Below are positions 6,946 through 62,130 of a stretch of 64,000 nt of DNA, piece after piece; the stretch's first letter is position 1; the number at the start of each line of letters is the position of its first letter. The stretch is from Scatophagus argus (taxonomy: Eukaryota > Chordata > Actinopteri > Scatophagidae). The notes under the pieces are model-generated. The model saw only the letters and a program-made list of their open reading frames with translations. It searched no databases and was not told the DNA's origin. A program made the position numbers and the translations under genes. The DNA lies in contig NC_058511.1 of NCBI RefSeq assembly GCF_020382885.2, forward strand, positions 312,501-376,500, given 5' to 3'.

Positions 6946-7490
6946 TGGACCAGCAGGAGGACTGGCAGGAGGACCAGCAGGAGGACCAGCAGGAGGACCA
7001 GCAGGAGGACCAGTAAAAAGACTGGCAGGAGGACTGGCAGGGGGACTGGCAGGGGGACTGGCAGGAGGACCAGTACAAAGACCAGCAGGAGGACCGGCAG
7101 GAGGACCAGCAGGAGGACCAGTACAAAGACCAGCAGGAGGACCGGCAGGGGAACTGGCAGGAGGACCAGCAGGAGGACCAGCAGGAGGACCAGTAAAAAG
7201 ACTGGCAGGAGGACTGGCAGGGGGACTGGCAGGAGGACCAGTACAAAGACCAGCAGGAGGACCGGCAGGAGGACCAGCAGGAGGACCAGTACAAAGACCA
7301 GCAGGAGGACCGGCAGGGGAACTGGCAGGAGGACCAGCAGGAGGACCAGCAGGAGGACCAGTAAAAAGACTGGCAGGGGAACTGGCAGGAGGACCAGCAG
7401 GAGGACCAGCAGGAGGACCAGTACAAAGATCAGCAGGAGGACCGGCAGGGGGACTAGCAGGAGAACCAGCAGGAGGGCCAGCAGGAAGAA
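6946..7490. repeat. 12-bp minisatellite with higher-order structure
   Basis: About 45 tandem copies of a 12-bp unit of the kind GGACCAGCAGGA, with variants GGACTGGCAGGG, GGACCGGCAGGA, GGACCAGTAAAA and AGACCAGTACAA. The GTAAAAAG variant recurs at about 7012, 7192 and 7360, so there is a second-level period of 168-180 bp. Because 12 is divisible by three, both strands stay open in some frames; this is not evidence of a gene. Confidence 0.95.
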
Positions 7491-10905: not shown

Positions 10906-12534
10906 TCATTCGACAGGCACGCCGTCCACACTCTCCTGGGATATCTCAGAGTCTAGGGAGTAGCAGGAGCTACCGTTGTCCTGAGTGTCCCGGTTGACCT
11001 CCTCGGAGAGTGTGGAGGCACCCGCCGAGGCCCCGCCCCCTCCACCAGGCTCCGTGGCGCCCTCACAGAAGTGGGCGGAGGCCTGGAAGAGCTGGCTGCA
11101 GAGGCGGTTGTAGCGGTGGTAGCGGGACGGTTTGCCTGTGTGGGTGTACATGTGCTCCTGCAGCTGACTCTTGTGGGAGAAGCGCAGGCTGCAGACGGCG
11201 CAGGCGATCTTACGTTTACGTGAGTGCAAGATGGCGGGGGTGGGGCTACTTCCTCCTCCTCCTCCTCCTCCTACTCCTCCCCCCCGGCTCCTCCTTAGCT
11301 CTGCAGCCAGCTGGTTAGCGAGTGCCTGGCTTTGCCTCAGTGCCTCCTCCAGACATCCTGCATCCATCTGCTCCCGGGCCCCCGTTGGCCCCTCCTCCAC
11401 GCCGGCGTCCAGCTCGCTGCCCTGCGACAATCCCTCCATCAGGCGAGTAGGGTCGAGGGCATGACTGAACAGGTGCTCCCGCAGGCCCTCGGGGGAGGAG
11501 CAGCGCTCCCCACAACGAGGACACAGCAAGACCAGAGGCCGGTCTTTGAACAGGAGGCTCTGACTGGGACTGCTACCCTGAGCAGGAGACGGGGACCCCA
11601 ATCCCTGCCCCTCCTCCCCCTCGCCGTCCTCCCCTTCCTCTTCCTCTAAACGCTCTTGCTTTATGCGAGTCGAGATGTCCGAGTCGTCTCCTGATGCCAC
11701 TGAGCAAACATTGCGTAATGCAGAGGCCTGGCGGTCTGACGGGACTCCCTCCAGTCCAACGGCTAGGGACAGCTGTGAGTGGGTCCGGCCCCCCCGGCCG
11801 GAGGAGCGTCCATCGTCAGGGGCCCCGCGGGACACCGTGGTGGACTTGGGGACTCCAGGAGCCTCCTTGTTGGCCAGCTGGGAGGAGATCTGGATGCCAT
11901 ACAGGTTGGACATGCGGACGACGTCAGTGGCGGTGTCGGCAGCACCCTCACCAGGTTTCCGGCACAACTGGTAGGCGTGAAGGAACTTGATGCCCTCCTG
12001 CAGCCGACTCTGGTCCACCGGCTGTTTGGGACACATGCCGGTGTACATGATGTGCAGGAGGTAGCTGAAGACGTCCGGCTGGATGTCTGTGGGCTGGATC
12101 TTTATACACTCACTGAGGACAGGGGGACAGACAGAGACAACATGTCAGCTGAGAATCAATCAACAAGGTGAGACATGGTATGTTAAAACATCAGGTCGCG
12201 TCCACGTACATCAGATTTTGCTGACAAGAGTCAAAGATTCTGCCACAAAGTTAGGATTCATAAATCATCTAGAAGAAAAGCGTCTGCAGCCTGTGGCTTC
12301 ACTCTCAGGTCAGCTGTTCGTATTATTCTGTCCACCCCACCCCCAACCCACACCACCGGACCTGGACTGGTGGATGAAGATCATCTTGAAGTAGTTGGAG
12401 AAGGCAGCCAGCACAGCTCGGTGAGCCTTGAAGTAGACGTTTCCGATGGCAACAGTACAGTCGCACAGGAAGCCGAACTCCCTCTGAACGTTGAGCTGCT
12501 GCAGCAGGAAGAGGCTGTGAGACGACACCTCCAT
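10906..12534 (-). CDS. zbtb25: zinc finger and BTB domain protein 25
   Basis: Two coding exons on the minus strand, 12362-12534 and 10906-12112, joined in phase at [13 protein letters not shown], giving 459 aa (human about 435). The N-terminal BTB/POZ domain is clear: [34 protein letters not shown] and MYTG. Two C2H2 fingers follow, one around [21 protein letters not shown] and one [21 protein letters not shown] near the C-terminus, preceded by SRKRKI as in human ZBTB25. A SUMO-type IKQE motif lies in an acidic middle region, and a Gly run of ten or so residues ([11 protein letters not shown]) is a fish-specific low-complexity insert. The protein is a nuclear BTB repressor. It is divergent from zbtb1, the mammalian arrangement. 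The start is fixed by the BTB alignment. Confidence 0.93.
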
Positions 12535-13069
12535 GACCCACTCTGTGAAGACACAACACGACGTCACGATCTGCTGTGAGGCCCTGAACACACCTGTGTT
12601 CCTGACTGTGACGCCGACCTGTCCGTTACCACGGTAACTGTCTCTCTGGAACAGAAAACACAGTTTACCACGTTTTGACTAAAGCCCCACCTGGACAGGT
12701 GAGGTCACAGGTCAGCTCACTGAAGGTCACCTGAGACACACACACACACACACACACGGGGTGGGGGCGGGTGGTCTTTGGACGACAGCAAACGTCTCAG
12801 ATCCAAAGAAACCCGGAAACACCCGCGCGACCAAAAAAACAAAACAAAACCAAAATACATTTATTGCTCCGCGCGTGCACGCCGTGTCGCGCCCGCGAGG
12901 CTGCAGCCTCCTCCATCCTCTGCCTCATTCACATTCAACACGCACGTCCTCCTTCTCCTACACGCGCACAGGCGCGTGCGCAGCCCCCCTCCCGCCACGC
13001 CCCGCGCCCGCCTGTCCGCTTCGTGCACGCGCGCAGTGCCCGGCGGCCGTTAATCGGCGATTTACCGCA

Positions 13070-16280: not shown

Positions 16281-17093
16281 GAACTGTAAACACATGATTA
16301 ATGTGCGTTACTTCACCTTGCTCTTACACCCATGGTCACCACTCTGTAGTCCTTCCCAAAGCACTATCTGATTGGTCACGAGTAACACCAACATTGACAG
16401 CTGCTGTGATCGACAGGTAGAGTAACTGGAGCCGTTCTGTGTGTCAAAGAGAAGGCAGCAGATAATTTTTCCATGATGGGAAAACAGGCCAGTTTCCCAG
16501 TTGAACCACTGGAAATGAAGTCGCAGCCAACAGGATTTCACTCAGTGGAGGCAAAAGTGGCATATCTTAAATAAAGTAAAACTGCACTCAGATGCAGAAC
16601 GCAGAACGCTGAATGGGTAAAAGCTGATAGAAATAAACATACAGTGTTTGTGTTTTTATTGTCTGTCGGATGGCTCACACATGACTCAGCTCATAATGTA
16701 GTGTGTGTTATGTTATGATTTGTGATTTCAAAAATTTCTTTATGTCCACTCAAACAAATCAGCAAAAGCAAATTATTAAAATACAAATCCATTCTGAAAA
16801 GCCCCAGGATGTAAAGAGGACTGACTGTCAACTCTGAAGTCACTTGATTCTGAGGATGACATTTTCTTCTTCTCTGATGTAGGAGCTAAATGACTGAAGT
16901 CACACCTCTTCATCATTCACGTCTGATTTTGATGAGTCATAGCCGGATGGTTCTGCCTCGCTGAGCACAACCAGCCAAAAGTTATGAAATGCTCTGCAGT
17001 GTAATAAAAGTCGACCGCAGAGAAACCTCACAGCAGAAAGAATGTCGCTGTTTAATTTCTCCCTTCATGTCTTCCTCCGTTGTCTGCAGGGCG

Positions 17094-19148
17094 ATGGCGA
17101 GGCCGAGCCACAGCGATCATGTCCTCCAGCAGCTCAACAACCAGCGGGAGTGGGGCTTCCTGTGTGACTGTCTCATTGCCATCGGTGACATCTATTTTAG
17201 GGCACACAAGGCTGTCCTGGCGGCCTGCAGCTCCTACTTCAGGATGATGTTCATCCGCGACCAGCAGGGGGCGGGCCGCCTGGACCTCAGTAACATGCAG
17301 ATCAGTGCAGAGTGCTTCGACCTCATCCTGCAGCTCATGTACCTCGGACGCATTGTTGTGGGGAGCTATGAATTCGATGAGCTCAAGGCTTCCATGGCGT
17401 ACCTGCAGATGTACTACATCCCAGACTCGCTGGAGGATCTCAGGGACATCAGGAGCTCCAACCTCACCCCATCCTCCTCGGCCTCCTCCTCGTCCAGTTC
17501 TTCGACCGGCCCTGTTGGTGGGAAAATGATGTTTGGGGTGCGCATGTATGAGCAGCAGAGGCCTCCGGCACCAGATGCAGAGCGTCTACCAAAAGCTGTC
17601 AACAGTACTGCTGTGCGTCCAGCTGTTTCAGCGACTGTCAGCAGACCAGTTGTGGTGGAGGAGGTGGTGAACACACCTCTCATAGTGGCACCGTTGGTGG
17701 TGGATGGAGGAGTCGAGCAGCCATGCGATTTGAGAAAGAGGTCCAGCGGCAAGAGTTCGACTCTCAAAGACCGTCCACGGTTTGGCCGCACCTACACCTG
17801 CGATGACTGCGGCTTTGTCTTCAGCTGCGAAAAGCTTCTGATTGAACACATCCTGACCTGCACTAACAGGAAGGCCTTTCATCAGCCGAGAGGGAACACT
17901 GAAGGTGACAATGACTCCAGCAAAGCTGAGAGCTCCACCTCTGAGAGCACAGAAGAACCCAGGGTCATCTGTAAAGGCGAGGATGAATGGCCCGAGGCCA
18001 AGGCCAACACTGAGCTCGCCATCAGGTCGGTGGCAGCAGGGACAGACGGTGAGTCCGGATCAACTCGCAGCATCTCCATTAAGACAGAACCAGAAGAAAA
18101 TACTTTCCCTGAGATAGAAGTGGTCCGGGTCGGTGAACACACCAACAGAGACTGTAGCGCACGCTTTAATGAAGCCACACGTAAAGATATGCAGAGGGAG
18201 AAAACTGGATCAGACCGAGAACCAGAGCCCGGTGTCTCAGGTATGGATAACAGCAACGAGCCTTTTGAAGGCCACATGTCCAGCAGTGAAGATTCAACAG
18301 TCCCTGCAAAGCTTCGTAAGGTCAAAGACGAGAAGCAGGACACCGACTGTGCCCCCTGTGAACTCTGTGGTGCTCTGTTACCAGAGGAGGATAAGTCGGC
18401 CCACTATCTGTCCAACCACATGGGCCATATATGTGCCTGTGGGAGGTGTGGCCAGGTTCTGATCAAAGGCCGCCAGCTCCAGGAACATGCAGAGCGCTGT
18501 GGTGAAACGCAGGGCGGCGAGTCAGATTCCCACGGGGAGGATGAGGCGTCCCTGCTCGAGGAGCCACAGGGGATGGAGGAGGGGCTGCTGGAGGCGGCCG
18601 ACCTGGCCTGCTCTCACTGCGGTCTGCTGTTCCAGAATGAGAGCCTGGCACTGGAGCACGCCCTGTCCTGCCACGATCAGGAGCTGTTCCGCCCGGTGCT
18701 GCTGGAGGAGGGCGGAGAAGCCGATCACCGCCGCAAACACTTCTGCAGCATCTGTGGCAAAGGCTTTTACCAGCGTTGCCACCTGCGGGAGCACTACACC
18801 GTCCACACCAAGGAGAAGCAGTTCACCTGCCAGACCTGCGGGAAGCAGTTCCTGCGGGAGCGCCAGCTCAGGCTGCACACCGACATGCACAAAGGCATGG
18901 CACGCTATGTGTGCCCCGTCTGCGACCAGGGAACGTTCCTCAAACACGACCACGTCCGACACATGATCTCCCACCTGTCGGCCGGGGAAACCATCTGCCA
19001 GGTGTGCTTTCAGATCTTCCCTGGTGGAGAACAGCTGGAGAAACACATGGACGTCCACCTGTACATCTGCGGCGTCTGTGGTGAGAAGTTCCGTCTCCGT
19101 AAAGACATGAGGAGCCACTATAACTCCAAGCACACCAAGAGACTATAG
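17094..19148 (+). CDS. zbtb1: zinc finger and BTB domain protein 1
   Basis: One coding exon, 684 aa (human 713). The ATG at 17094 follows the acceptor TCTGCAG at 17084-17090, and MARPSHSDHVLQQLNNQREW aligns with the human N-terminus, so the longer open frame from 16989 is 5' intron sequence. The BTB domain spans about residues 1-115. Then comes a C2HC finger (CDDCGFVFSCEKLLIEHILTC) at about 240, the UBZ-like ubiquitin-binding finger of this family, then acidic and SUMO-type segments (IKTEPEE). Eight further fingers lie between about 420 and 680, including CSICGKGFYQRCHLREHYTVH and CQTCGKQFLRERQLRLHTDMH, nearly identical to human. The human protein is a chromatin regulator needed for lymphoid development and DNA-damage tolerance; that role is from the family. 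Confidence 0.95.
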   Translation: MARPSHSDHVLQQLNNQREWGFLCDCLIAIGDIYFRAHKAVLAACSSYFRMMFIRDQQGAGRLDLSNMQISAECFDLILQLMYLGRIVVGSYEFDELKASMAYLQMYYIPDSLEDLRDIRSSNLTPSSSASSSSSSSTGPVGGKMMFGVRMYEQQRPPAPDAERLPKAVNSTAVRPAVSATVSRPVVVEEVVNTPLIVAPLVVDGGVEQPCDLRKRSSGKSSTLKDRPRFGRTYTCDDCGFVFSCEKLLIEHILTCTNRKAFHQPRGNTEGDNDSSKAESSTSESTEEPRVICKGEDEWPEAKANTELAIRSVAAGTDGESGSTRSISIKTEPEENTFPEIEVVRVGEHTNRDCSARFNEATRKDMQREKTGSDREPEPGVSGMDNSNEPFEGHMSSSEDSTVPAKLRKVKDEKQDTDCAPCELCGALLPEEDKSAHYLSNHMGHICACGRCGQVLIKGRQLQEHAERCGETQGGESDSHGEDEASLLEEPQGMEEGLLEAADLACSHCGLLFQNESLALEHALSCHDQELFRPVLLEEGGEADHRRKHFCSICGKGFYQRCHLREHYTVHTKEKQFTCQTCGKQFLRERQLRLHTDMHKGMARYVCPVCDQGTFLKHDHVRHMISHLSAGETICQVCFQIFPGGEQLEKHMDVHLYICGVCGEKFRLRKDMRSHYNSKHTKRL

Positions 19149-27979: not shown

Positions 27980-30569
<2,590 letters not shown>

Positions 30570-33500
30570 TTACTCATCCAGGCCCTTCTTGGAGGACCCG
30601 TCCCTGGTCTTTGCCCTCAGCTTGTTCACCTGCGACTCTGCAATGTCTGCCCTCTCCTCAGCCTCCTCCATTTCATGCTGCAGCTTGCGGAGTTTGGCCA
30701 TGTTGGAGTTTGCAGCCTCCTCTGCTTCCTCGGCTGCACGTTTGTAGGACTTGACCTTCAGTTGCAGCTTGTCGACCAGGTCCTGGAGACGAGCCATGTT
30801 CTTGCGGTCTTCTTCAGTCTGGTAGGTGAGCTCCTTGATGCGGCGTTCATACTTGCGAACGCCCTTGACAGACTCCGTTCCCCTCCTCTGCTCTGCCTCG
30901 AGTTCGATTTCCAGCTCTTTGATGCGAGCCTCCAGTTTCTGGAGCTGTTTCTTGCCACCCTTCATGGCAATCTGCTCAGCCTCATCCAGCCGGTGCTGCA
31001 GGTCTTTGATGGTCTGCTCCATGTTCTTCTTCATGCGCTCCAGATGTGCGCTGGTGTCCTGCTCCTTCTTTAACTCCTCAGCCATCATGGCTGCATCTGT
31101 GATGGCCTTCTTTGCCTTCTCCTCAGCATTACGGTTCTCCTGTATGGCCTCCTCAATCTCACTCTGCAGGTGCAGGAGGTCTGCCTCATGCTTCTTTTTC
31201 TGGTTGATCAAGCTGGTGTTTTGGGAGTGCAGGAGTTGCATGCGCTCCGTAGCATCAGTCAGCTCCTGTTCGGCCAGTTTCCGACTTCTTTCTGTCTGCT
31301 CAAGGGCAGCTCTCACCTCCTCTAGCTCAGCCTGAATCAGGTTGTTTCGGCGTTCCAGGATAGCAATGTTCTCCCTTAGGTCATCATTGCAATGCTGTGC
31401 ATCGTCCAGCTGTAGCTGAGAGTCCTTCAGAAATGCCTGGAGGCTCTTGAGCTGTTTCTGGGCATCAGCTGCTTGCCTGTTAGCTTGGCTGAGCTGGATC
31501 TCCATCTCGTTGAGGTCACCTTCCATCTTCTTCTTGACTCTCAGGGACTCATTGCGGCTCCTGGTTTCAGATTCCAGAGAGGACTGAAGTGACTCAAGCA
31601 TTCGTTGGTAGTTCCTCTTTGCCTGCTCCATTTCTTCATCTTTCTCAGCCAGCTTGCGCTCCATGTCGGCCTTCACTTGGTTGAACTCCAGCTGGGCTCG
31701 GAGGATCTTGCTTTCTTCATGCTCCAGAGATCCTTCTGCCTCCTCAAGTGCTGACTGAAGCTCAGCTTTTTCTTGCTCAAGCTGCTTCCGGATCTTCTCC
31801 AGTTCATGAGCACTCCTGCCGCCCTCTCCCAACTGGTCAGTGAGGTCTGAGATCTCTTCTTGGAGGTTCTTGTTCTCTCTCTTCATTGTCTCAAGTTGAT
31901 CCAGGCACTCCTCGTATGCATTCCTCAGCTTGAAAAGTTCGGTGCTCAGAGACCGAGCCTCCTTCTGTGAGGCCTCCAGCTCACACTGTGACTCCTCAAA
32001 CTTTTGCTTCCACTCTGCCATGACTTTGTCAAAGGCTCTTTGTTTTTTGTCCAGGGCCGCTGATGCTGCATTGGATCTCTCAAGGTCCAACATCAGGTCT
32101 TCAATCTCATTTTGGAGGCGGTGCTTTGTCTTCTCAAGGGACGAACACTTTGCATTCACAGCTTCAATGGCCTCCTCAGCTTCCTGCAGTCTTTGAACCA
32201 GCTTCTTTTTTGCTTCTTCCAGTTCCTCTGTTCTCTGAATTCCATCAGTTTCATATTTTGTCCTCCATGCTGAGATCTCTGTGTTGGATTTGGACAGAGC
32301 TCTCTGCAGCTCAGCCTTCGCCTCCTGCTCCTCCTCAAACTGCTCTCGGAGCAGATCACAGTCATGACGAGCAGATTGTACAGCATGAGCAAGGGCATTC
32401 TTTGCCTTGACTTCTTCCTCCAGCTGTCTGCGTAGATCTTCTACCTGCTGGTTGTATGAGTTCTTCCCCCTGGTCAACTGTGATATCAGACACTCCTTCT
32501 CCTCCAGCTGCCGTCCAAACTCACTGTTCTCAGTGAGAAGCTTGGCCCTCTGGGTAGTCAAGTCATTGATGGTCCGTTGAGCTTCCTCATATTTATTCTT
32601 GTACTCATTCATGTTGTCCTCCATTGTGCGGCACATCTTTTCCATGTTTGACTTGGCCTTCACCACACTTTCCATGTTAGAAGACAAGTCATCCAGCTCA
32701 AGCTTCAGCTCACTCTTTTCTTTCTCCAGCTTCTGCTTCACGCGTTGCAGATTATCAATCTGTTCGCCAAGTTCGGCAACACTGTCAGCATGTTTCTTCC
32801 TCAGAGAGGCAGCAGTGGCTTCATGTTGGAGTGTAGATTCCTCCAGTTCCCTACGCAGCTTCTGAAATTCAGCATCTCTCTTCTTATTCAGCTCCACCTG
32901 TGCTGATGTTGCTCCACCAGCCTCCTCCAGGCGCTCGCTGATGTCCTCCAGCTCACGGGAAAGATCAGAACGCTGCTTCTCAACTTTGGCCCTGGCTGCA
33001 CGCTCAGCATCCAGCTCCTCTTCTAGTTCCTCAATTCTTGCCTGGTTTTCTTTCAGCTTCTTCTGGAGCTGAACGGAGGCAACCTGCTCATCTTCCAGCC
33101 TTGAATTTATCTGGACAATCTCAAAGTCCTTTTTCTTAAGTTTTTCCTCCAGCTGCTGTTTGTCATTCTCCAAGTCCATCAAACTCTCCTGGGTCAGTTT
33201 CAGGTCTCCTTCGAGCTTCCTCTTTGAGCGCTCGAGGTCCATTCTGACTTTCTTCTCTTGCTCTAAGGAGCCCTCTAGATCATCCACCTGTTGCTCCAGT
33301 TTAGCTTTGGCTTTGGTCAAGCTGTTGGCTTTGTCCTCTTCACTCTGAAGATCATCCAGTGTCTGCTGGTGAGCCTCCTGCAGTGCCTTCTTCTCTTTGG
33401 TTAGCTTCATGATGTTTTCATCCTGGGAAGCCATCTCCTCTGTCAAGTTTTTCACCTTATTTTCTGTCGCATGTTTCTCTTTTTCGACCTTGGCCAAAGT

Positions 33501-36374
33501 CAGCTCCAGATCATCTATATCTTTCTTCAGCTCAGAGCATTCATCTTCAAGCTTCCGTTTCTTAGCTGTGAGATCTGCATTTAGCTCCTCTTCATCTTCC
33601 AGTCGTTCTGTCATCTCTTTCAGCTTGGCTTCAAGTTGAATCTTGCTCTTTATAAGTTGTTCACAGCGTTCTTCAGCGTCTGTTAGTGTATCCTGTTCAG
33701 ACTGAATTTGAAGAGTCAGGTCATTCTTCTCTTGGAGAAGAGTCACTATCTTCTCCTCAAGTTCCTTCCGTCTTGTTTCTGATTTTTCCAGAGTTTCTTT
33801 CAGCTTGTTGAACTCATCTTTCATGTTGGCCATCTCCTTCTCAGACTCAGCACTCTTTAGCAAGGGTTTGATTTTGAAGAAAAGCTTCATCCAGGGCCAG
33901 TTCTTTACACCTAGGAAAGAGCGAAGGTTCCACTGGATGACCATCAGGGCATCTCTGCGTTCAACAAGCTTAGCAAACTGTGCCCTCATGAGGATTGCCC
34001 GGGCGTTAGCCTGGATTCTGGTGATGATTCGAGACAATTGCTCATCTCGCATCTCCTCCAGTGTCCCCAGCAGGCCAGCTTTAAAGAAAACTTTGGTGTG
34101 GCCAAACTTATATTGAGTGTGATCGATGTCCAGTGATCCCAGCAACTTTTCAGCACTCTTCTTGCAGTCAATGAACTGGCCTTCAGGGATAGCAGAAGCA
34201 TTTAGAATCCTGTACCGTTGTTTGAAGTCACCGTAGAGCACTCTGTTTGGGAAGCCCTTCCTACAGATTCTGATGCCTTCCAGGACACCATTACAGCGCA
34301 GCTGGTGCATCACAAGGCAGTTGTCCATGACCCCTGGAGTTTTCCTCTCATTTGGAATTAGACAGCGGACAAAGTGAGGATGTGTGGTCTTCAGATTGGT
34401 CATTAGTTTGTTCAGGTTTTCCCTGTGAAGTGCAGACACAGTCTGGAACGAGGAGCCTTTCTTCTTGGTTCCTTTGCTACCTCCTTTATCACTGCTGTCA
34501 GTGCCTGAATAGCTTGAAAACAGCAGGCTGAGGAGCTTCAGAGATGATTTCTGGTAAAGACCAACCACAGTTTCATTCAGGGGGTCTTTGTTTTTGACCA
34601 ACCAGTTGGTGATATTGTAGTCCACCGTGCCAGCATAATGAACCAGGGCAAAATGAGCCTCTGCTTTTCCCTTTGCAGCCCTTGGCTTTTCAAACATCTT
34701 GTTCTTGCCTAGATGATTATCATAGAGCTTGGACTTGAAGGTCTGGTCACTTGCTTTGGGAAACATGCATTCCTCCTCCAGAATCGACAGAATCCCCAGC
34801 GGTTTCTCAATGAGGTCAATACAAGCTTGTAAGTCCATCCCAAAGTCAATGAATTCCCAGTCAATACCTTCTTTTTTGTATTCTTCTTGCTCCAAAACAA
34901 ACATGTGATGATTGAAAAACTGTTGCAGTTTCTCGTTGGTGTAGTTGATGCACAGCTGCTCAAAAGTGTTGAAATCAAAGATCTCAAATCCTGCAATGTC
35001 CAGCACCCCTATGAAGTACTGCCGATGCTGTTTTGTGTCCAGGGATTGGTTGATTCTCACCACCATCCAGTTGAACATCTTTTCATACACTGACTTAGCC
35101 AGAGCACCGAGGGCGTAGTAGACTTGGTCCACACTTTGGCCTTTCGTGACATATTCATTTCCTACTTTGACTCTGGGATGGCATAGCCCTTTGATGAGGT
35201 CAGCAGAGTTTAGCCCCATTAGGTATGCTGATTTATCAGCAGCCTCAGTCCCATCCGGCTCAGCCTGTTCCTCACGCTGCTTCTGTTTGAACTTCATGTT
35301 GCCATAGTGCATGATGGCGCCCGTCAGTTTATAGACTCCCATCTTCTCTTCTGGAGTGAAGCCGAGCACATCAAAAGCACTGTCAGTGGCTATCAGCTCC
35401 TCTGAGTCATTGATGGAGGCGACTGATACCTCTCCTTGGGAGATGTAGGAGTAGTCGTATGGGTTGTTAGTGATCAGCAGCATGTCCAACAGTTCTGGCT
35501 TCTGGTTGGACAGGATCTGATAGAAGATGTGGTAATTTCTCTCAGCCTTGAGCTGAAAGGTGACGCGTGACTTCTCCAGCAGGTATGTCTCAATGTCAGC
35601 AGATGACAGCTTGCCACTTGTGCCAAAGTGAATTCGGATGAATTTTCCAAAACGCGATGAATTGTCATTTCTCAGTGTTTTGGCGTTGCCGAAGGCTTCC
35701 AACGCTGGGTTTGCCTGGATGATTTGATCCTCCAATGTACCCTTGCTGGTGTCCTTTTTGCCTCCACCACCAACTGCAGCAATGCTGGCAAAGTACTGGA
35801 TGACCCTCTTGGTGTTCACAGTCTTCCCAGCTCCTGATTCTCCAGTGATGAGGACAGACTGGTTCTCCCTGTCAGTCAACATGTACTGGTAGGCATTATC
35901 AGAGATGGAAAAGATATGAGGGGGAGCCTCACTTCTTTTCTTCCCTCTATAAGCTGCCACAACCTCAGCGTCATAGACAGGTAGCCATTTGTAGGGATTG
36001 ACGGTGACGCAGAAGAGCCCAGAGTAAGTGTAGATCATCCAGGCAGCATAACGCTCTTTGAGGTTAAACAACACAGCAGGCTCATGGAGGAAAGTGAACA
36101 TTGCCATGTCTTCGATTTTATCGAATTTTGGCGGGTTCTGGGGGTGGACGTCTGACTCCCTCACAGTTACTGTTGTTCCATCCTCCTTCTTGACAGTCAC
36201 CATCCCTCCGTCTTTGCTTTGGATTTGTCCCTTCACATATTCCACCTTATCATCGACTACAAAACATTCAGTCTTGATGTCAAAAGGTCGAGTCTGTGCC
36301 TCCAGACGCTCCTTTTCTGACTTTCTCAGGTAAGGCGCAGCCTTTCCGAACTCAGCCATCAGAGAGTCACCCAT
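30570..36374 (-). CDS. sarcomeric myosin heavy chain, ventricular/cardiac type, intronless
   Basis: One uninterrupted frame of 1934 aa, the normal length of a muscle myosin heavy chain. The start is set at 36374 because [20 protein letters not shown] is the cardiac/ventricular N-terminus and the context is ACCATGG; the frame stays open 127 codons upstream, but that part has no myosin likeness. Motor domain: P-loop GESGAGKT (about 178-185), switch [11 protein letters not shown], switch [21 protein letters not shown], loop 2 with [11 protein letters not shown]-helix region [15 protein letters not shown], and lever/IQ helix ending [16 protein letters not shown]. The rod is a complete heptad coiled coil ending SSKKGLDE, like fish ventricular myosin (vmhc). 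No frameshift, stop or lost ATPase residue was seen. Paralogous genes carry about 35-40 introns, so this is most simply an old retrocopy kept under selection. No poly(A) remnant was found. Confidence 0.95.
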
Positions 36375-36470: not shown

Positions 36471-36476
36471 TTTATA
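36471..36476 (-). promoter_or_regulatory. TATA box of the intronless myosin (candidate)
   Basis: TATAAA on the minus strand (in CCTTTATAAACATCC), about 97 nt upstream of the myosin ATG. It would give a short 5'UTR of roughly 65 nt. A pyrimidine-rich AG (CTCCTCTTAG) between it and the ATG could alternatively be a 5'UTR splice acceptor. Confidence 0.45.
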
Positions 36477-37539
36477 AAGGCTCCCTGTGGACCAAACTAG
36501 GAGATAAGTGCTGAATAGAAAAAACTCAAAAGCTGACACTAAATTTGTCTTGTGATGTGAAAGCACCATGAGGGCAGTTTCAGGACCTTTGGGTGTTAAA
36601 GTCCATTTAAGGAAAAGAAGTGTTTCTCTCCTTATCTGCCCACTGATAGGGACTAACGCCTCTTCATTTAGACTCTGCTCAGCTTCTACTGGTGCTGGCA
36701 ACAGTCCACAATTTTTTCTACAATATAATCCTTCACCTGCAGCAGTTTGAGGCAACTTTTAAAAGCAAAGCTCATAAGAAAAAACATTTAATTTGCCTAC
36801 ATTTATTTAGTCAATTCTTAGGTGTCAAAATGCTTAGTCATATCTGATTCTGCCTCCCTGAAAAAGAGGATTCAGTGGTCTGCAACCTGTAAATACAATA
36901 GTTGGTACTATAAAGTACTAATATATGTATAATAACTTCCTTAGTAATATTCAGGCACACTGATTTGCAGTAGTAGTATCATTACACTCAGTATTGTACT
37001 TCATATTATCCAATTATTGAATCTAAAACACATTTTCTTAAAATAAATAAAAATATTATTTCACGCATTTTAAAAGAAAACTGAACAATTTCCTGATGGA
37101 AACAGCTTGGAACAAGTGGTTTATCTCACCTTAATGTCTTGATTGGTTCATTAGGTTAAATGGAGACTAAATGACGAAAAAGTTTTTGGCTCTGATCTGA
37201 ACATGGAGTGTGTGGTCGGAATGTGAATGGGATATGAAGCGTGTGGTTTGACGGGCTCAAGTGTTTTGTCTCTTTATCTCTGACAGTCCAGGCTCATCAG
37301 CCTGCAAATAGAAACCAGTGACACTTGAGCCAGTGTTTTTATCCCATGTGGACGATACCTCAGACTGCAGCACAGTAAGCTCTTATAACATCGGTATCGA
37401 ACCTGAGTACTGCTGTGCTACAGACTACAAGGTTTTATCCCTTTCCTGTCCAGTGAAAATCATGTTTTGTGACAAACTGAAGAATGAATTTTTTCTTTTT
37501 GTGCTGAGAAAATCTCCTCCTTCAGTTGAATTAGCTCCT

Positions 37540-39519: not shown

Positions 39520-45176
<5,657 letters not shown>

Positions 45177-45439
45177 CGCCGCCGCAACACAGTGATGACG
45201 GCTGAGCGGCAGCGAGACCTGAGGAAGACAACAGGAAGCAGCACAGTCAGAAGAACAGTGCTGCTTATTGGACCGAGACATGATGGAGGTCAAATTACAC
45301 AAACACACACAGAGGAAAAAACCCACGTGCATTCACCGTAAACACACACGCACACAGAAACACACACTCGTCATGTCTGTAAACATCACAGCTTCTCTTC
45401 CTGTTCCCAGGTGGTTTACCTGAGCAGAGTCACATGACC

Positions 45440-49754: not shown

Positions 49755-50900
49755 TCAGTGGTAAAGTGCTGACAGTTGCTCCTCCAGCTCCAACAGGACA
49801 GACGACGATGAGCCAACGCCAGGATTTAGCAACGAGCGAAAAAACCTCCTCCACATCCTGGAGTACATGTCGCTGCAGAGTGAGAAAGGAAGAGTCAGAC
49901 AGGAAGAGTCAGTCAGGGAGGAAGAGTCAGAGAGGGACAGTGAGAAAGGAAGAGTCAGAGAGGAAGAGTCATTCAGAGAGGAAGAGTAAGACAGAGAGGA
50001 AGAGTCAGAGAGGAAGAGTCACTCAGAGAGGAAGAGTCAGACAGAGAGGAAGAGTCAGTCAGGGAGGAAGAGTCAGAGAGGAAGAGTCAGGGAGGAAGAG
50101 TCAGACAGAGAGGAAGAGTCAGAGAGGGACAGTGAAAAAGGAAGAGTCAGAGAGGAAGAGTCACTCAGAGAAGAAGAGTCAGTCAGGGAGGAAGAGTCAG
50201 AAAGGAAGAGTCACTCAGAGAGGAAGAGTCACACAGAAAGAGTCAGAGAGGAAGAGTCACTCAGAGAGGAAGAGTCAGAGAGGGAAGAGTCACTACAGTG
50301 AAACATTCAGTACCAGGGTTCGTCTCCACTGAACTGCTCTGCCGTCCAGCCGCCGGCATCTTTAATGGAAACCATCCGGCTGTTGGTTAGGAGGAGGTGG
50401 ACCGTTTCGGCCACGCCTACCAGGTCCACCTGACAGGTGGAGAAAGAGGGAGGGGTTAGAATCTACCAATCCCAGTGAAGGGGGAGTGGTCAGTACAGCG
50501 TGGACAGATGTTTTATAGTACCAGCTGTGGCGGGGCGTCCGGCTCCAAGAGGCCCACATTGATATATTTCTGAGCTGACAGGACCTGCTGGACAGATGTA
50601 ACATCCTGCTGGAGGTTCAGGTCCACAGAGGATGACCAGTCCAACGGGAAGACACAATCAGGACTCAAGACACATCTGGAGGAACAACAATACAATCCAA
50701 TTACTTCTGTTTTTCTTTTCACAAAATCACAAGACTCTTCCCCCTCCTCTTCCTGTGCCGACTCACCTGTGAGAACAGGCGAGGATGTTTGGCTGCAGAG
50801 CTGCGTGCAACAGCCCGCAGGAGTGCAGCTGTGACACCAGCTGCAACAGAGCAACAGATTTACGACCGACCAGCAGCTCGGTGGGCGCACACTCCGTCAG

Positions 50901-55363: not shown

Positions 55364-56175
55364 AAGATAAGAACTTTATTGATCCTGAAGAAAATTGTTA
55401 TGCCAGGGGTGCAATACAAAGAGGCGTGCAAAAGAGACAAGCGCTGCTCAGTATGGTGTCTGAGGTGGTGTTCTGCAGCCTCACGTACTGTGGCCGGCCA
55501 ATGAGGTAGTCCCCAATCCAGGTGACCAGGAGTCATTCACCTGCATGTCCAGGAGCTTACTGCAGAGTAGAGCAGGTCTTATTGTGTTGAAAGCACTGGA
55601 AAAGTCGAAGAACATGACTCTCACAGTGCTGCCTGCCCTGTCCAGGTGTGCGTAGGCTCTGTGCAGCAGGTAGATGATGGTGTCATCAGCTCCAATACAT
55701 GGCTGGTATGCGAATTGTAGGGGGTCCAGGTATGGTTCCACCACTGATCGGACGTGCTTTAGGACCAGCCTCTCCAGTGACGTCATGGCGTGTGATGTCA
55801 AGGCCACGAGTCTGTAGTCACTGTGTGAGTTTGGGTGGTTGTTCTTCGGCACTGGAACCAGACGTGTTGTTTTCCACGGAGCAGGAACGACCATCATGCT
55901 CAGGCTCAGTTGGAAAATGTGCAGACAAACATCACACAGCTGGGCCGCACATCCTTTCAGGAGTTTGGGGCTCAAGCTGAGCTCCATCCTCACAGCATCC
56001 CTGCTGTTGGTGAATGGAGGCTCTGACCTGTTAGGAAAAGACAGTGGAGGTGGAGGGGTGGAGGCTGAGGTCCACAGTGGTGAGGAGGTGTGGGTGAGGG
56101 ATGGGAAGTGTCCACAACTTCAAACCTGTTGAAGAACAGGTTTAACTCGTTGGCCTCTTGTTGGTCTCCTACCAT
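55364..56175 (-). mobile_element. LINE reverse-transcriptase fragment (Rex1/CR1-like)
   Basis: Minus-strand frame with classical RT blocks: TTRLVPVPKNNHPNSHSDYR, LVALTSHAMTSLERLVLKHV, DPLQFAYQPCIGADDTIIYL and VRVMFFDFSSAFNTI. It breaks before the catalytic YxDD block, then jumps to a 3' tail with GGATCAATAAAGTTCTTATC. Upstream, a second piece (ANELNLFFNRFEV) is frame-shifted. It is a 5'- and internally truncated dead copy. Confidence 0.88.
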
Positions 56176-60142: not shown

Positions 60143-62130
60143 AGGTGTGTGGCTCACAATGTCCTTCCAATCAGCTGATCTGTGGAAATGGCTGCTGTCT
60201 GGACAGAACTCTGGAGTGTGATGGTCTGAAGCACTGCAGCGACGGATCAGACGAGGAGCTCTGCAGCCAACGTAACACACACACACACACACACACACTT
60301 AAACCTGAAACAAGTCTGAACCCTCAGGTAGTTCTGCACAATGTCAGGACAAGACAAAATGTCCTCCCTCATTCACTTTGGGCCTCACAAAGATAGACAG
60401 CTCTGACCTTTGTCTTCCTCCTCTTCCTCAGTGAACCAGACCTTCACCCGCCTGCTGAACATCGACGTGAACCAGAGAAAAGGTCAGCTGTTTGGTCTTT
60501 TTATCTCTGAATTCCCTGCTAGCGCTCAATGCTAACAAGCTACATGCTAATGACGCCCCGCCCCCCAGCAGCTCGGTGCACAGAGCCCCCTCACACCGGA
60601 CCGTGCCGGGCGAGTCACACCCGCTGGTACTACGACCCCATGAACAGGAAGTGCTCTCGTTTCACCTATGGCGGCTGTGACGCAAACGGGAACAACTTTG
60701 AGAAAGAAAACAAATGCAGCGAGACCTGCGATGGAGTGACTGGTACTAAATACACACAAATACACGCAGGACAGTACCATGTAATACCGTGTAGTACTGC
60801 TATGTACAAATGTACTCAGAGGTCCACAGATCTATACATTATTATTGTTACAGTACCATGTAATATCTCACTGTCCGATGTAAGCCACATGTTCATATCA
60901 TCTGTTTTTATATTTTCACTGCATCAGTCAAGATTTGTTCATTTTTAGTATTTTACAACAGGCTGTTTAACAAAAGTAAGTTGCTACTCACAGAAGATTC
61001 ATAAAAAGCAGACGGTTTTTATATTGAAAAAGGATGAGTTCAGGAGTCTCACAGCCTGAGGACAGGAGCTGATCTGTGGTCTGCTGGCGTGACAGCAGGT
61101 AGCTGCGTACCTGTTGTCGGGTGGCTGTAGGGTGAACAGGCTGCAACTGGGCGCCTACAGACACCTCACTGACATCACCGACGCTCTGCCGGGTTCCAGT
61201 GATCTGGGCAGAGGACGGCACACCGAGCAACCGGTGTTGGCCAAAAGACACATTTTTAACTACTGTATTTACTTCCATGTAGTACCACATAGGAGCCCTG
61301 CGACTGACTGGCGACCAGTCCAGGGTGAACCCGCCTCTCGCCAGTAGTCAGCTGGGATTGGCTCCAGCCCCCCGCGACCCTGATGGGTAAGCGGCGTAGA
61401 GACTGGATGGATAGGACCACATAGGACCACATGTTTATGGAGCCCATATCATCCCATGTGGTCCCATTTACAGTGGTTCCATATAGTGCCATACCATAAT
61501 ACCTTCCGCTGCCTCTAGTGCTTCCTTCAAGTTCTTCTTTCCTGATGGGAAAATACAGATGTTTATGTTAATGTTTGTTTATCACATCATGACAGATGTG
61601 CACTCAGCACACACAGTGCTGTGTGGCACCATTCAGTGCTGCAGGTGCTGGTGTGTAGTACCACGCATTGTGTAGTATTTGTGATTGGGACTGTCTGTGT
61701 GTGTTTCTGCAGAGCGTAACGTCTTTTTCAGAGGGATGTTTGACCGTTTTGACAAACAAGAAGAAAGTGACTCCAGTAAGAAATTTTACTTCATCTCTTT
61801 TTCCAAAGTGATCACCTTTAATGTCCAGGGATGAAGTCTACACTGACACTTTGTTAAATTTCAAAGCAAGCACAAAGTGGTGGATTTCTAAGTTTTACTT
61901 CTCAGTGGGGTCAGCTGACAGGAAGTGAATGCGTTGTCTCTTCCTCAGGTAACATAGCACTGGCAGTTCTCCTGACGGTGGCCATTTTGGCTCTGTTGGC
62001 GATCCTTGCCTACTGCTTCCTGAAGTCCAAAAAGAAGCACGCCCATAGGCCTGTGGCCACAAGCCCCGCCCATGTGGCGCTGTCAGAGGGGGACACGCTT
62101 GTTTACAACAGCACCACCAAACCGGCATGA
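57475..62130 (+). CDS. spint1: Kunitz-type protease inhibitor 1 (HAI-1)
   Basis: Ten exons: 57475-57895, 58680-58840, 59010-59151, 59749-59919, 60000-60035, 60143-60271, 60432-60482, 60569-60742, 61713-61775 and 61949-62130; total 1530 nt, 509 aa (human HAI-1 is similar). Order: signal peptide with Leu core, MANSC-type Cys domain (CERLCCDDPRCNLVLLEP), PKD-like domain (GETVTLNG, LEPGSYVFQLTVTD), Kunitz 1 (VGPCRAAFPRWRYD, FVFGGC), LDL-receptor class A module (CGNGCCLDRTLECDG, CSDGSDEELC), Kunitz 2 (GPCRASHTRWYYDP, FTYGGC), a membrane helix (LAVLLTVAILALLAILAYCF) and a short Lys/His-rich tail. The P1 residue is Arg in both Kunitz domains. It inhibits HGF activator, matriptase and related trypsin-like proteases at the epithelial surface. 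The internal exons all end in phase 1, so domains can be skipped without frameshift. The start is the ATG at 57475. Confidence 0.96.
58210..58250. repeat. 10-bp tandem repeat in spint1 intron 1
   Basis: TAGCTTAGCG repeated about four times. Confidence 0.9.
59580..59625. repeat. 20-bp inverted repeat in spint1 intron 3
   Basis: CAGTCCTAACTCCGTACTAC, six-base loop, then its reverse complement with one mismatch. It would form a strong hairpin in RNA. Confidence 0.85.
60099..60136. repeat. (GT)n run upstream of the spint1 LDLa exon
   Basis: GT run of about 38 bases ending seven bases before the acceptor AG of exon 60143-60271. Confidence 0.95.
60275..60298. repeat. (CA)n run downstream of the spint1 LDLa exon
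   Basis: CA run beginning four bases after the exon end, complementary to the GT run before the exon. Confidence 0.95.
61285..61410 (+). mobile_element. partial copy of the tRNA-like dispersed repeat
   Basis: Shares GACTGGCGACCAGTCCAGGG, TGAACCCGCCTCTCGCC and CAGCTGGGATTGGCTCCAG-type modules with 29588-29945, opposite orientation; it lacks the tRNA-like part. Confidence 0.7.

Follow-up and report, generated by a model that had tools for sequence, protein, structure and literature searches.

How a complete sarcomeric myosin heavy chain gene of Scatophagus argus comes to lack introns, and which of the cardiac myosins it encodes, was addressed by analyzing the gene within a stretch of 64 kb of DNA (the window). 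In the reading that we favor, with a probability of roughly 0.8 for its parts taken jointly, the gene would be the orthologue of myh6 (amhc), would have arisen by early retroposition, and would serve as an atrial motor.

The intronless gene, its protein, and its neighbors

The myosin is encoded by a single open frame of 5805 bases on the minus strand, which starts with the ATG at 36374, stops with the TAA ending at 30570, and comprises 1934 codons without an internal stop (Table 1). Each of the remaining five frames over this region contains 50 to 158 stops, the longest open run being 169 codons. When compared with PDB sequences using phmmer, residues 1 to 1934 aligned in one stretch with residues 1 to 1934 of a full-length Myosin-7 chain, and the Pfam domains Myosin_N, Myosin_head, and Myosin_tail_1 were identified, i.e., N-terminal domain, motor head, and full coiled-coil tail are present in one chain of about 1935 amino acids. 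Specifically, the alignment of motor residues 1 to 780 with Myosin-7 has three gap columns, a pair near residue 209 and a single one near residue 627, which we take to be surface loops 1 and 2, and the rod alignment pairs 1098 residues of the S. argus protein with 1097 of Myosin-7. Because motor and rod align nearly gap-free, there is neither a retained intron nor a gap the size of an exon. The motor landmark motifs are present in the translation. In sarcomeric myosins of class II, two chains dimerise via the rod, form thick filaments, and pull actin using ATP, and the encoded protein would be an ordinary member of this class. The sequence-only reading had proposed a complete and intact cardiac-type MYH gene without introns; the 1934-codon frame and the end-to-end match to Myosin-7 confirm this, including the exact coordinates.

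Table 1. Features of the myosin locus (positions within the window)
Feature	Position	Strand	Remarks
Intronless sarcomeric (cardiac-type) myosin heavy chain CDS, probable fish myh6/amhc	30570..36374	-	Frame, homology, domains
TATAAA, possible core promoter, unproven	36471..36476	-	102 bases upstream of ATG
CArG-type element CCTTAAATGG, possible SRF site, unproven	36603..36612	-	238 bases upstream of ATG
AATAAA, possible polyadenylation signal	30089..30094	-	476 bases after stop
myh6_F459 primer site	35893..35916	-	CDS start 459, 2 mismatches, sole site in window
myh6_F507 primer site	35846..35868	-	CDS start 507, 2 mismatches, sole site in window
myh6_R1325 reverse primer site	35053..35075	+	Exact match, CDS position 1322 here
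myh6_R1322 reverse primer site	35056..35078	+	Exact match, CDS position 1319 here
InaF-motif frame (inafm2-type)	27980-28549	-
p21-binding and kinase (PAK-type) gene, in pieces	39520 to 45332	-

Family membership was compared by phmmer bit scores among chains with solved structures, of which Myosin-7 scored 3504.6, Myosin-4 3273.6, and Myosin-11 1374.9 over the full length. Within this set, the cardiac myosins (MYH6/7) are nearer than fast skeletal or smooth/non-muscle myosins, and the bit scores rule out a skeletal or smooth-muscle identity. Among the PDB chains, the motor is closest to Myosin-6 (664/767 residues, 86.6% identity), compared with 84.9% for Myosin-7 (661/779). At 52 gap-free sites distinguishing the two, for which chains 8zbk_A (MYH6) and 8q6t_A (MYH7) were taken to be mammalian, the S. 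argus protein agrees with Myosin-6 in 25 cases, with Myosin-7 in 13, and with neither in 14. The resemblance to mammalian MYH6 and MYH7 thus consists in the end-to-end alignment and these motor identities, whereas the genes of mammals are divided into about 40 exons and the fish gene lacks introns. The human genes also differ in location, being described as a MYH7/MYH6 tandem pair on chromosome 14.

The sequence-only reading had placed the gene between inafm2 and pak6 and away from the usual myosin clusters; the InaF-motif frame and the PAK-type pieces agree with this location, and tblastn found no second myosin anywhere in the 64-kb window. The nearest gene upstream of the myosin is split into exons. 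No relatives were found among 2 pattern matches in viral_contigs and 8 in genome_contigs. The strand of the myosin gene, minus, had gone unmentioned in that reading.

Correspondence to the fish myh6 marker

The fish myh6 gene and its long exon are a known phylogenetic marker that is already in use. As described by Li et al. (2007), the marker was derived from long uninterrupted exons common to zebrafish and fugu and corresponds to exon ENSDARE00000025410. All four myh6 primers of that study match the S. argus gene, the forward primers at the positions given in their names and the reverse primers one codon off. The reverse primers translate as MVVRI, the residues present in this gene, vs. MVTRI in the PDB chains of Myosin-6 and Myosin-7. 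Because the four marker primers land in it, the gene can be identified, with high probability, as the orthologue of fish myh6/amhc, a judgment drawn from primer mapping, which is strong evidence, yet not a gene tree with the zebrafish sequence. Zebrafish myh6 (amhc, weak atrium) shares with it the four primer sites, a long intron-free exon, and the cardiac Myosin-6 type; the difference is that, to judge from the primer names, the S. argus gene is one codon shorter between 507 and 1300. The text of Li et al. gives 5811 bp for the longest exon, with the gene unspecified; this amounts to 1936 codons and a stop codon, as long as a complete MYH coding sequence, and we infer from this maximum that the entire zebrafish myh6 coding sequence is one exon.

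The label "vmhc-like" given to the gene from its sequence did not hold. The motor leans slightly to Myosin-6 over Myosin-7 and the myh6 primers map in register, which together point to myh6/amhc (atrial) itself rather than to a copy of vmhc (ventricular). The accompanying remark that intronless fish myosins may have been mentioned before fits the long myh6 exon, which has been in use as a phylogenetic marker from 2007 onwards. Zebrafish vmhc and vmhcl are likewise cardiac sarcomeric myosins, but published descriptions set them apart as ventricular, as a tandem on chromosome 2, and, for vmhcl, as possessing introns (13 exons or more, to judge from a passage in which the "13th exon" was targeted). 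The naming is disputed: PMC8783688 contains the proposal that vmhc, not amhc, is the zebrafish homologue of MYH6 and vmhcl that of MYH7. Consequently, fish "myh6" may stand in a more complex relationship to mammalian MYH6 than simple orthology, and alignments pairing the fish gene with tetrapod "myh6" may mix paralogues.

Zebrafish amhc, i.e., myh6, is described as the predominant atrial isoform and serves as an atrium-restricted marker; by analogy, atrial expression would be expected in S. argus. That an old myh6 retrogene has here acquired an altered main role, e.g., in the whole heart or in slow skeletal muscle, is improbable in view of these zebrafish descriptions, although cardiac myosins do change tissue between vertebrates, Xenopus myh6 being reported as strongly expressed in the embryonic heart and less so in jaw muscle.

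Probable retroposition and the absence of introns

The S. argus gene is devoid of introns, whereas there are many in the family, as in zebrafish vmhcl and in Xenopus myh6, for which a splice donor after the first coding exon is described. This absence is most simply explained by retroposition, an event inferred rather than seen, because neither a poly(A) remnant (no run of ≥8 A in 1569 bases downstream) nor a convincing target-site duplication between the flanks (576 and 669 bases searched) was found. Two A/T-rich 11-base words are common to both flanks, and 25 of 500 shuffles did equally well. Poly(A) remnants and target-site duplications are usually lost in old copies. In neutral simulations with 10% substitution, about 24 stops are expected in the frame (20 simulations, minimum 14), so that its intactness goes beyond neutral expectation, as for a functional retrogene. 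Retroposition followed by retention under selection, as the sequence-only reading had suggested, is thus well supported by the intact intronless frame. A recent processed pseudogene was ruled out by the intact frame and the stop simulation.

The missing insertion hallmarks would also fit an in-place loss of the introns, by recombination of the gene's cDNA with its own locus and without a new insertion site. This route is unlikely, as the simultaneous in-place loss of every intron is rarer than retroposition, and the window holds no second myosin, while zebrafish vmhcl/vmhc and human MYH7/MYH6 stand in tandem. In its favor, the TATAAA and the CArG-like element upstream are what an old promoter might have, but they are weak. 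Specifically, a scan of the 500 bases upstream of the ATG for 11 patterns, read on both strands, matched a single CArG-type element, a palindrome that counts on either strand (0.08 expected per 500 shuffled bases), a TATAAA (0.66 expected per 500 shuffled bases on both strands; not significant), GATA at three sites against 1.5 expected, an E-box, and a T-box-like site, and did not find MEF2, NKX, MCAT, NR2F, CCAAT, or TATAWAW patterns. These patterns are too weak to carry weight. The flank search found no firm splice signals around the gene; a donor-like CAG/GTTAGT begins 18 bases past the stop, an acceptor-like run ends 137 bases short of the ATG, and the two could delimit introns in the untranslated regions.

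A younger retrocopy of vmhc or vmhcl, confined to relatives of S. argus, would share the intronless and intact state, but is highly improbable, given the in-register match of the primers to the myh6 marker exon, the lean of the motor to Myosin-6, and the single myh6 exon on record across ray-finned fishes. An assembly artefact, i.e., cDNA contamination within the contig, for which the intron-free sequence is the sole point, can be dismissed, since the flanks are continuous on both sides and unique in the window except for one 120-base repeat downstream, a run of ≥8 A is missing from the 1569 bases downstream, and the single myh6 exon has been independently recorded in many fishes.

Probable age and consequences of the putative myh6 retrogene

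According to the retroposition reading, the spliced mRNA of a cardiac myosin heavy chain would have been reverse-transcribed and inserted elsewhere at an early stage of ray-finned fish evolution, before the split between gar/bowfin and teleosts and probably also before that of paddlefish. The copy would then have acquired heart expression and become the myosin motor of atrial muscle, with the ventricle served by other cardiac genes (vmhcl/vmhc in zebrafish). Broughton et al. state that "single exons were sequenced" and list myh6 for 40 of the 52 ray-finned fishes, of which 22 were sequenced by these authors; their table has single-exon myh6 fragments for gar, bowfin, and paddlefish and none for bichirs, and is also blank for two sturgeons, eight teleosts, both lungfishes, and both chondrichthyans. 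The bichir absence is weak evidence, because PCR success decides the entries, that for paddlefish included, and ten other ray-finned fishes are blank too. Taken together, the single exons of gar, bowfin, and paddlefish and the lack of one for bichirs date the copy event early, probably to around 300 million years ago or more. The sequence-only reading had confined the event to "this lineage", which is too narrow, since a single myh6 exon is on record for many fishes, zebrafish, fugu, and these three among them.

The chances are about even that one retroposition in stem Actinopteri, some 384 to 355 million years ago (mean node ages of Broughton et al.), supplied nearly all ray-finned fishes with their atrial motor, and that the retrocopy, not the intron-bearing original, took over the atrial role. 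If so, the gene would rank with the longest and oldest functional retrogenes of vertebrates, and the atrial/ventricular myosin split of fishes would be independent of the mammalian MYH6/MYH7 pair. A retroposed myh6 would offer a simple origin for distinct atrial and ventricular myosins in fishes. A 5.8-kb coding sequence that has remained without introns for perhaps 300 million years or longer would test the importance of introns for myosin expression, and fish myh6, an essential and strongly expressed muscle gene, would hence provide a clean natural test.

The intronless state may also explain why myh6 passes as a "single-copy" marker despite the large gene family. The first screen described by Li et al. 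was limited to exons of >800 bp, and intron-split paralogues would escape it because only such exons were compared. Their relaxed BLAST against the zebrafish genome likewise yielded no alignable myh6 paralogue, an observation that the screen leaves unexplained.

In the passages of openly licensed papers that were consulted, fish myh6 is not called intronless or a retrogene, and PMC3155783 and PMC3091775, which treat intronless genes and zebrafish retrocopies, do not contain the term "myosin" in their main text. A parallel exists in teleost rhodopsin, likewise a core tissue gene of fishes without introns, to which "intronless" refers in the relevant passage of PMC10297432, rather than to myh6. 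The two proteins are unrelated. Among fish genes, the intronless rhodopsin of teleosts is a retrogene, and the myosin exceeds rhodopsin about fivefold in length.

Structure and surroundings of the myosin gene

The myosin heavy chain gene encodes the Pfam domains Myosin_N, Myosin_head, and Myosin_tail_1, and the remaining five frames over it contain 50 to 158 stops. Full-length Myosin-7 (PDB chain 8q6t_A) aligned with its protein in one stretch over the entire length, with 3 gap columns in the motor and a rod of 1098 residues against 1097; the gene thus lacks no exon-sized piece and retains no intron. No further myosin was found within the 64-kb window. The neighbors are of the inafm2, PAK, and SPINT1 types, and the surroundings thus represent ordinary genomic sequence; the names inafm2, pak6, and spint1 are domain-based assignments rather than named-sequence matches. 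Since the pieces of the PAK-type gene lie in separate frames, this gene has introns.

Features of the window
Feature	Position	Strand	Remark
Myosin heavy chain gene	36374 to 30570	minus	single open frame, 1934 codons + stop
InaF-motif frame, inafm2 type	27980-28549	minus	downstream of myosin gene
PAK-type gene	between 39520 and 45332	minus	upstream of myosin gene; p21-binding and kinase domain pieces
SPINT1-type gene	beyond PAK-type gene	plus	MANEC and Kunitz domains in separate frames
TATAAA	-102 from myosin ATG		weak candidate element
CArG-type element	-238 from myosin ATG		weak candidate element
AATAAA	+476 after myosin stop		weak candidate element
Donor-like CAG/GTTAGT	30544-30552	minus	begins 18 bases after myosin stop
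Acceptor-like pyrimidine run, terminal CAG	36511-36524	minus	ends 137 bases before myosin ATG
Dispersed repeat, copy 1	29590-29709		~0.9 kb 3' of myosin stop
Dispersed repeat, copy 2	61295-61412		near SPINT1-type gene
Reverse transcriptase fragment	55481-56119	minus	RVT_1, E 3.1e-8
12-base tandem repeat	6947-7486		45 copies (GGACCAGCAGGA)
Purine-rich imperfect tandem array	49877-50292		periods 14-50 bases
ZBTB-type gene (BTB + C2H2 zinc finger)	10906-12678	minus	BTB and C2H2 domains in separate frames
ZBTB-type gene (BTB + C2H2 zinc finger)	16965-19148	plus

The two dispersed repeat copies lie on opposite strands and share 90% identity over 120 bases. The reverse transcriptase fragment presumably belongs to a non-LTR element. 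Several frames are open on both strands of the 12-base repeat.

Correspondence to the fish myh6 marker

In Li et al. 2007 (PMC1838417), the zebrafish and fugu genomes were screened for conserved single exons of >800 bp, and one marker developed was myh6 (exon ENSDARE00000025410). Within the window, each of the four published myh6 primers matched only the myosin gene with up to 3 mismatches allowed. Primers myh6_F459 and myh6_F507 start at coding positions 459 and 507 (2 mismatches each). Primers myh6_R1325 and myh6_R1322 show no mismatch, and their sites lie at 1322 and 1319, each a codon short of the position in the name. From this agreement in numbering, the zebrafish exon in its annotation of that time would start at the start codon and span at least 1325 bases. 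The largest zebrafish marker exon in the same paper measures 5811 bp, equal to 1936 codons plus stop and long enough for just one entire myosin heavy chain; we infer that this exon is myh6. The reverse primers and the window gene encode MVVRI, versus MVTRI in the Myosin-6 (8zbk_A) and Myosin-7 chains. The window gene is thus no novelty: in all likelihood it is orthologous to a zebrafish gene that has been studied in depth, and its long exon has served fish phylogeny since 2007 (PMC1838417). In the parts of open-access texts searched, no statement was found on fish myh6 as an intronless retrogene or on its age.

The marker was rated single-copy, with no alignable paralogues, despite the large myosin family (PMC1838417 and PMC3682800). 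Screening of exons >800 bp only may be the reason for this verdict, but a relaxed BLAST search in PMC1838417 yielded no alignable myh6 paralogue either. The tetrapod sequences in both alignments may be paralogous.

Origin, retention, and age

The complete lack of introns, the absence of an adjacent myosin, and the introns of its relatives point to retroposition as the origin of the gene; loss of introns in place is a less probable alternative. No poly(A) tract was found in the 1569 bases downstream, and the two A/T-rich 11-base words common to both flanks were equaled by 25 of 500 shuffles, so that a target-site duplication cannot be claimed. Loss of both marks is expected for an old event. 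The TATAAA, CArG-type, and AATAAA candidates are weakly consistent with a self-contained gene, and the donor- and acceptor-like sites could mark UTR introns of an otherwise intronless gene.

In 20 simulations of a neutral copy at 10% substitution, about 24 stops arose (minimum, 14), 4.3% of random substitutions creating a stop in this frame; the frameshift rate in the computation was an assumed value. Drift does not readily account for an intact frame together with a motor of 85 to 87% identity.

Broughton et al. 2013 (PMC3682800) sequenced their markers as single exons, and their Appendix 2 records myh6 in 45 of 61 taxa. By our own count, these include 40 of 52 ray-finned fishes. Of the 40, 22 were sequenced in that study, paddlefish (Polyodon) and the gar Lepisosteus platostomus among them, while the other 18, bowfin and L. 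osseus included, come from databases. Of the 12 ray-finned fishes with a blank entry, eight are teleosts, two are sturgeons, and the remaining two are the bichirs sampled. The entries of both lungfishes and of both chondrichthyans are blank as well, and the sequences given for tetrapods and coelacanth were taken from databases and are uninformative on introns. Amia is among the 14 taxa amplified by Li et al. (PMC1838417). Betancur-R et al. 2013 (PMC3644299) list myh6 among nuclear exons; we read the accompanying numbers, 874 and 789, as those of taxa and bases. A copy event older than crown Neopterygii (mean, 328 million years; range, 296 to 358) follows from the intron-free fragment of gar and bowfin, and one older than crown Actinopteri (355; 326 to 381) from that of paddlefish. 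Absence in bichirs, for which PCR failure is weak evidence, would if real place it after crown Actinopterygii (384; 375 to 398; ages from PMC3682800).

Relation to cardiac myosins and probable role

By bit score, the whole protein is a cardiac-type myosin (Myosin-7, 3504.6; Myosin-4, 3273.6; Myosin-11, 1374.9). The motor alone matched Myosin-6 best (1547.6 versus 1528.5 for the best Myosin-7; identities, 664/767 and 661/779), and at the 52 gap-free sites differing between the two it agrees with Myosin-6 at 25, with Myosin-7 at 13, and with neither at 14, the PDB chains being assumed mammalian (species absent from the search output). Human MYH6 and MYH7 lie in tandem, a pair attributed to duplication on the tetrapod side (passages among PMC7914448, PMC4729522, PMC2786259, and PMC8783688), and the Myosin-6 leaning alone is therefore no proof of MYH6 orthology. 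The proposal in PMC8783688 that zebrafish vmhc is the MYH6 homologue and vmhcl the MYH7 homologue argues against simple name transfer; it bears on mammalian homology, not on the window gene being fish amhc.

In passages of the same four sources, zebrafish vmhcl and vmhc are ventricular and lie in tandem on chromosome 2; the vmhcl exon targeted is given as the 13th and, elsewhere in the same paper, as exon 2 (PMC8783688). Zebrafish myh6 is amhc, an atrium-restricted marker mutated in weak atrium, and the window gene would thus, via orthology, most likely encode an atrial thick filament motor.
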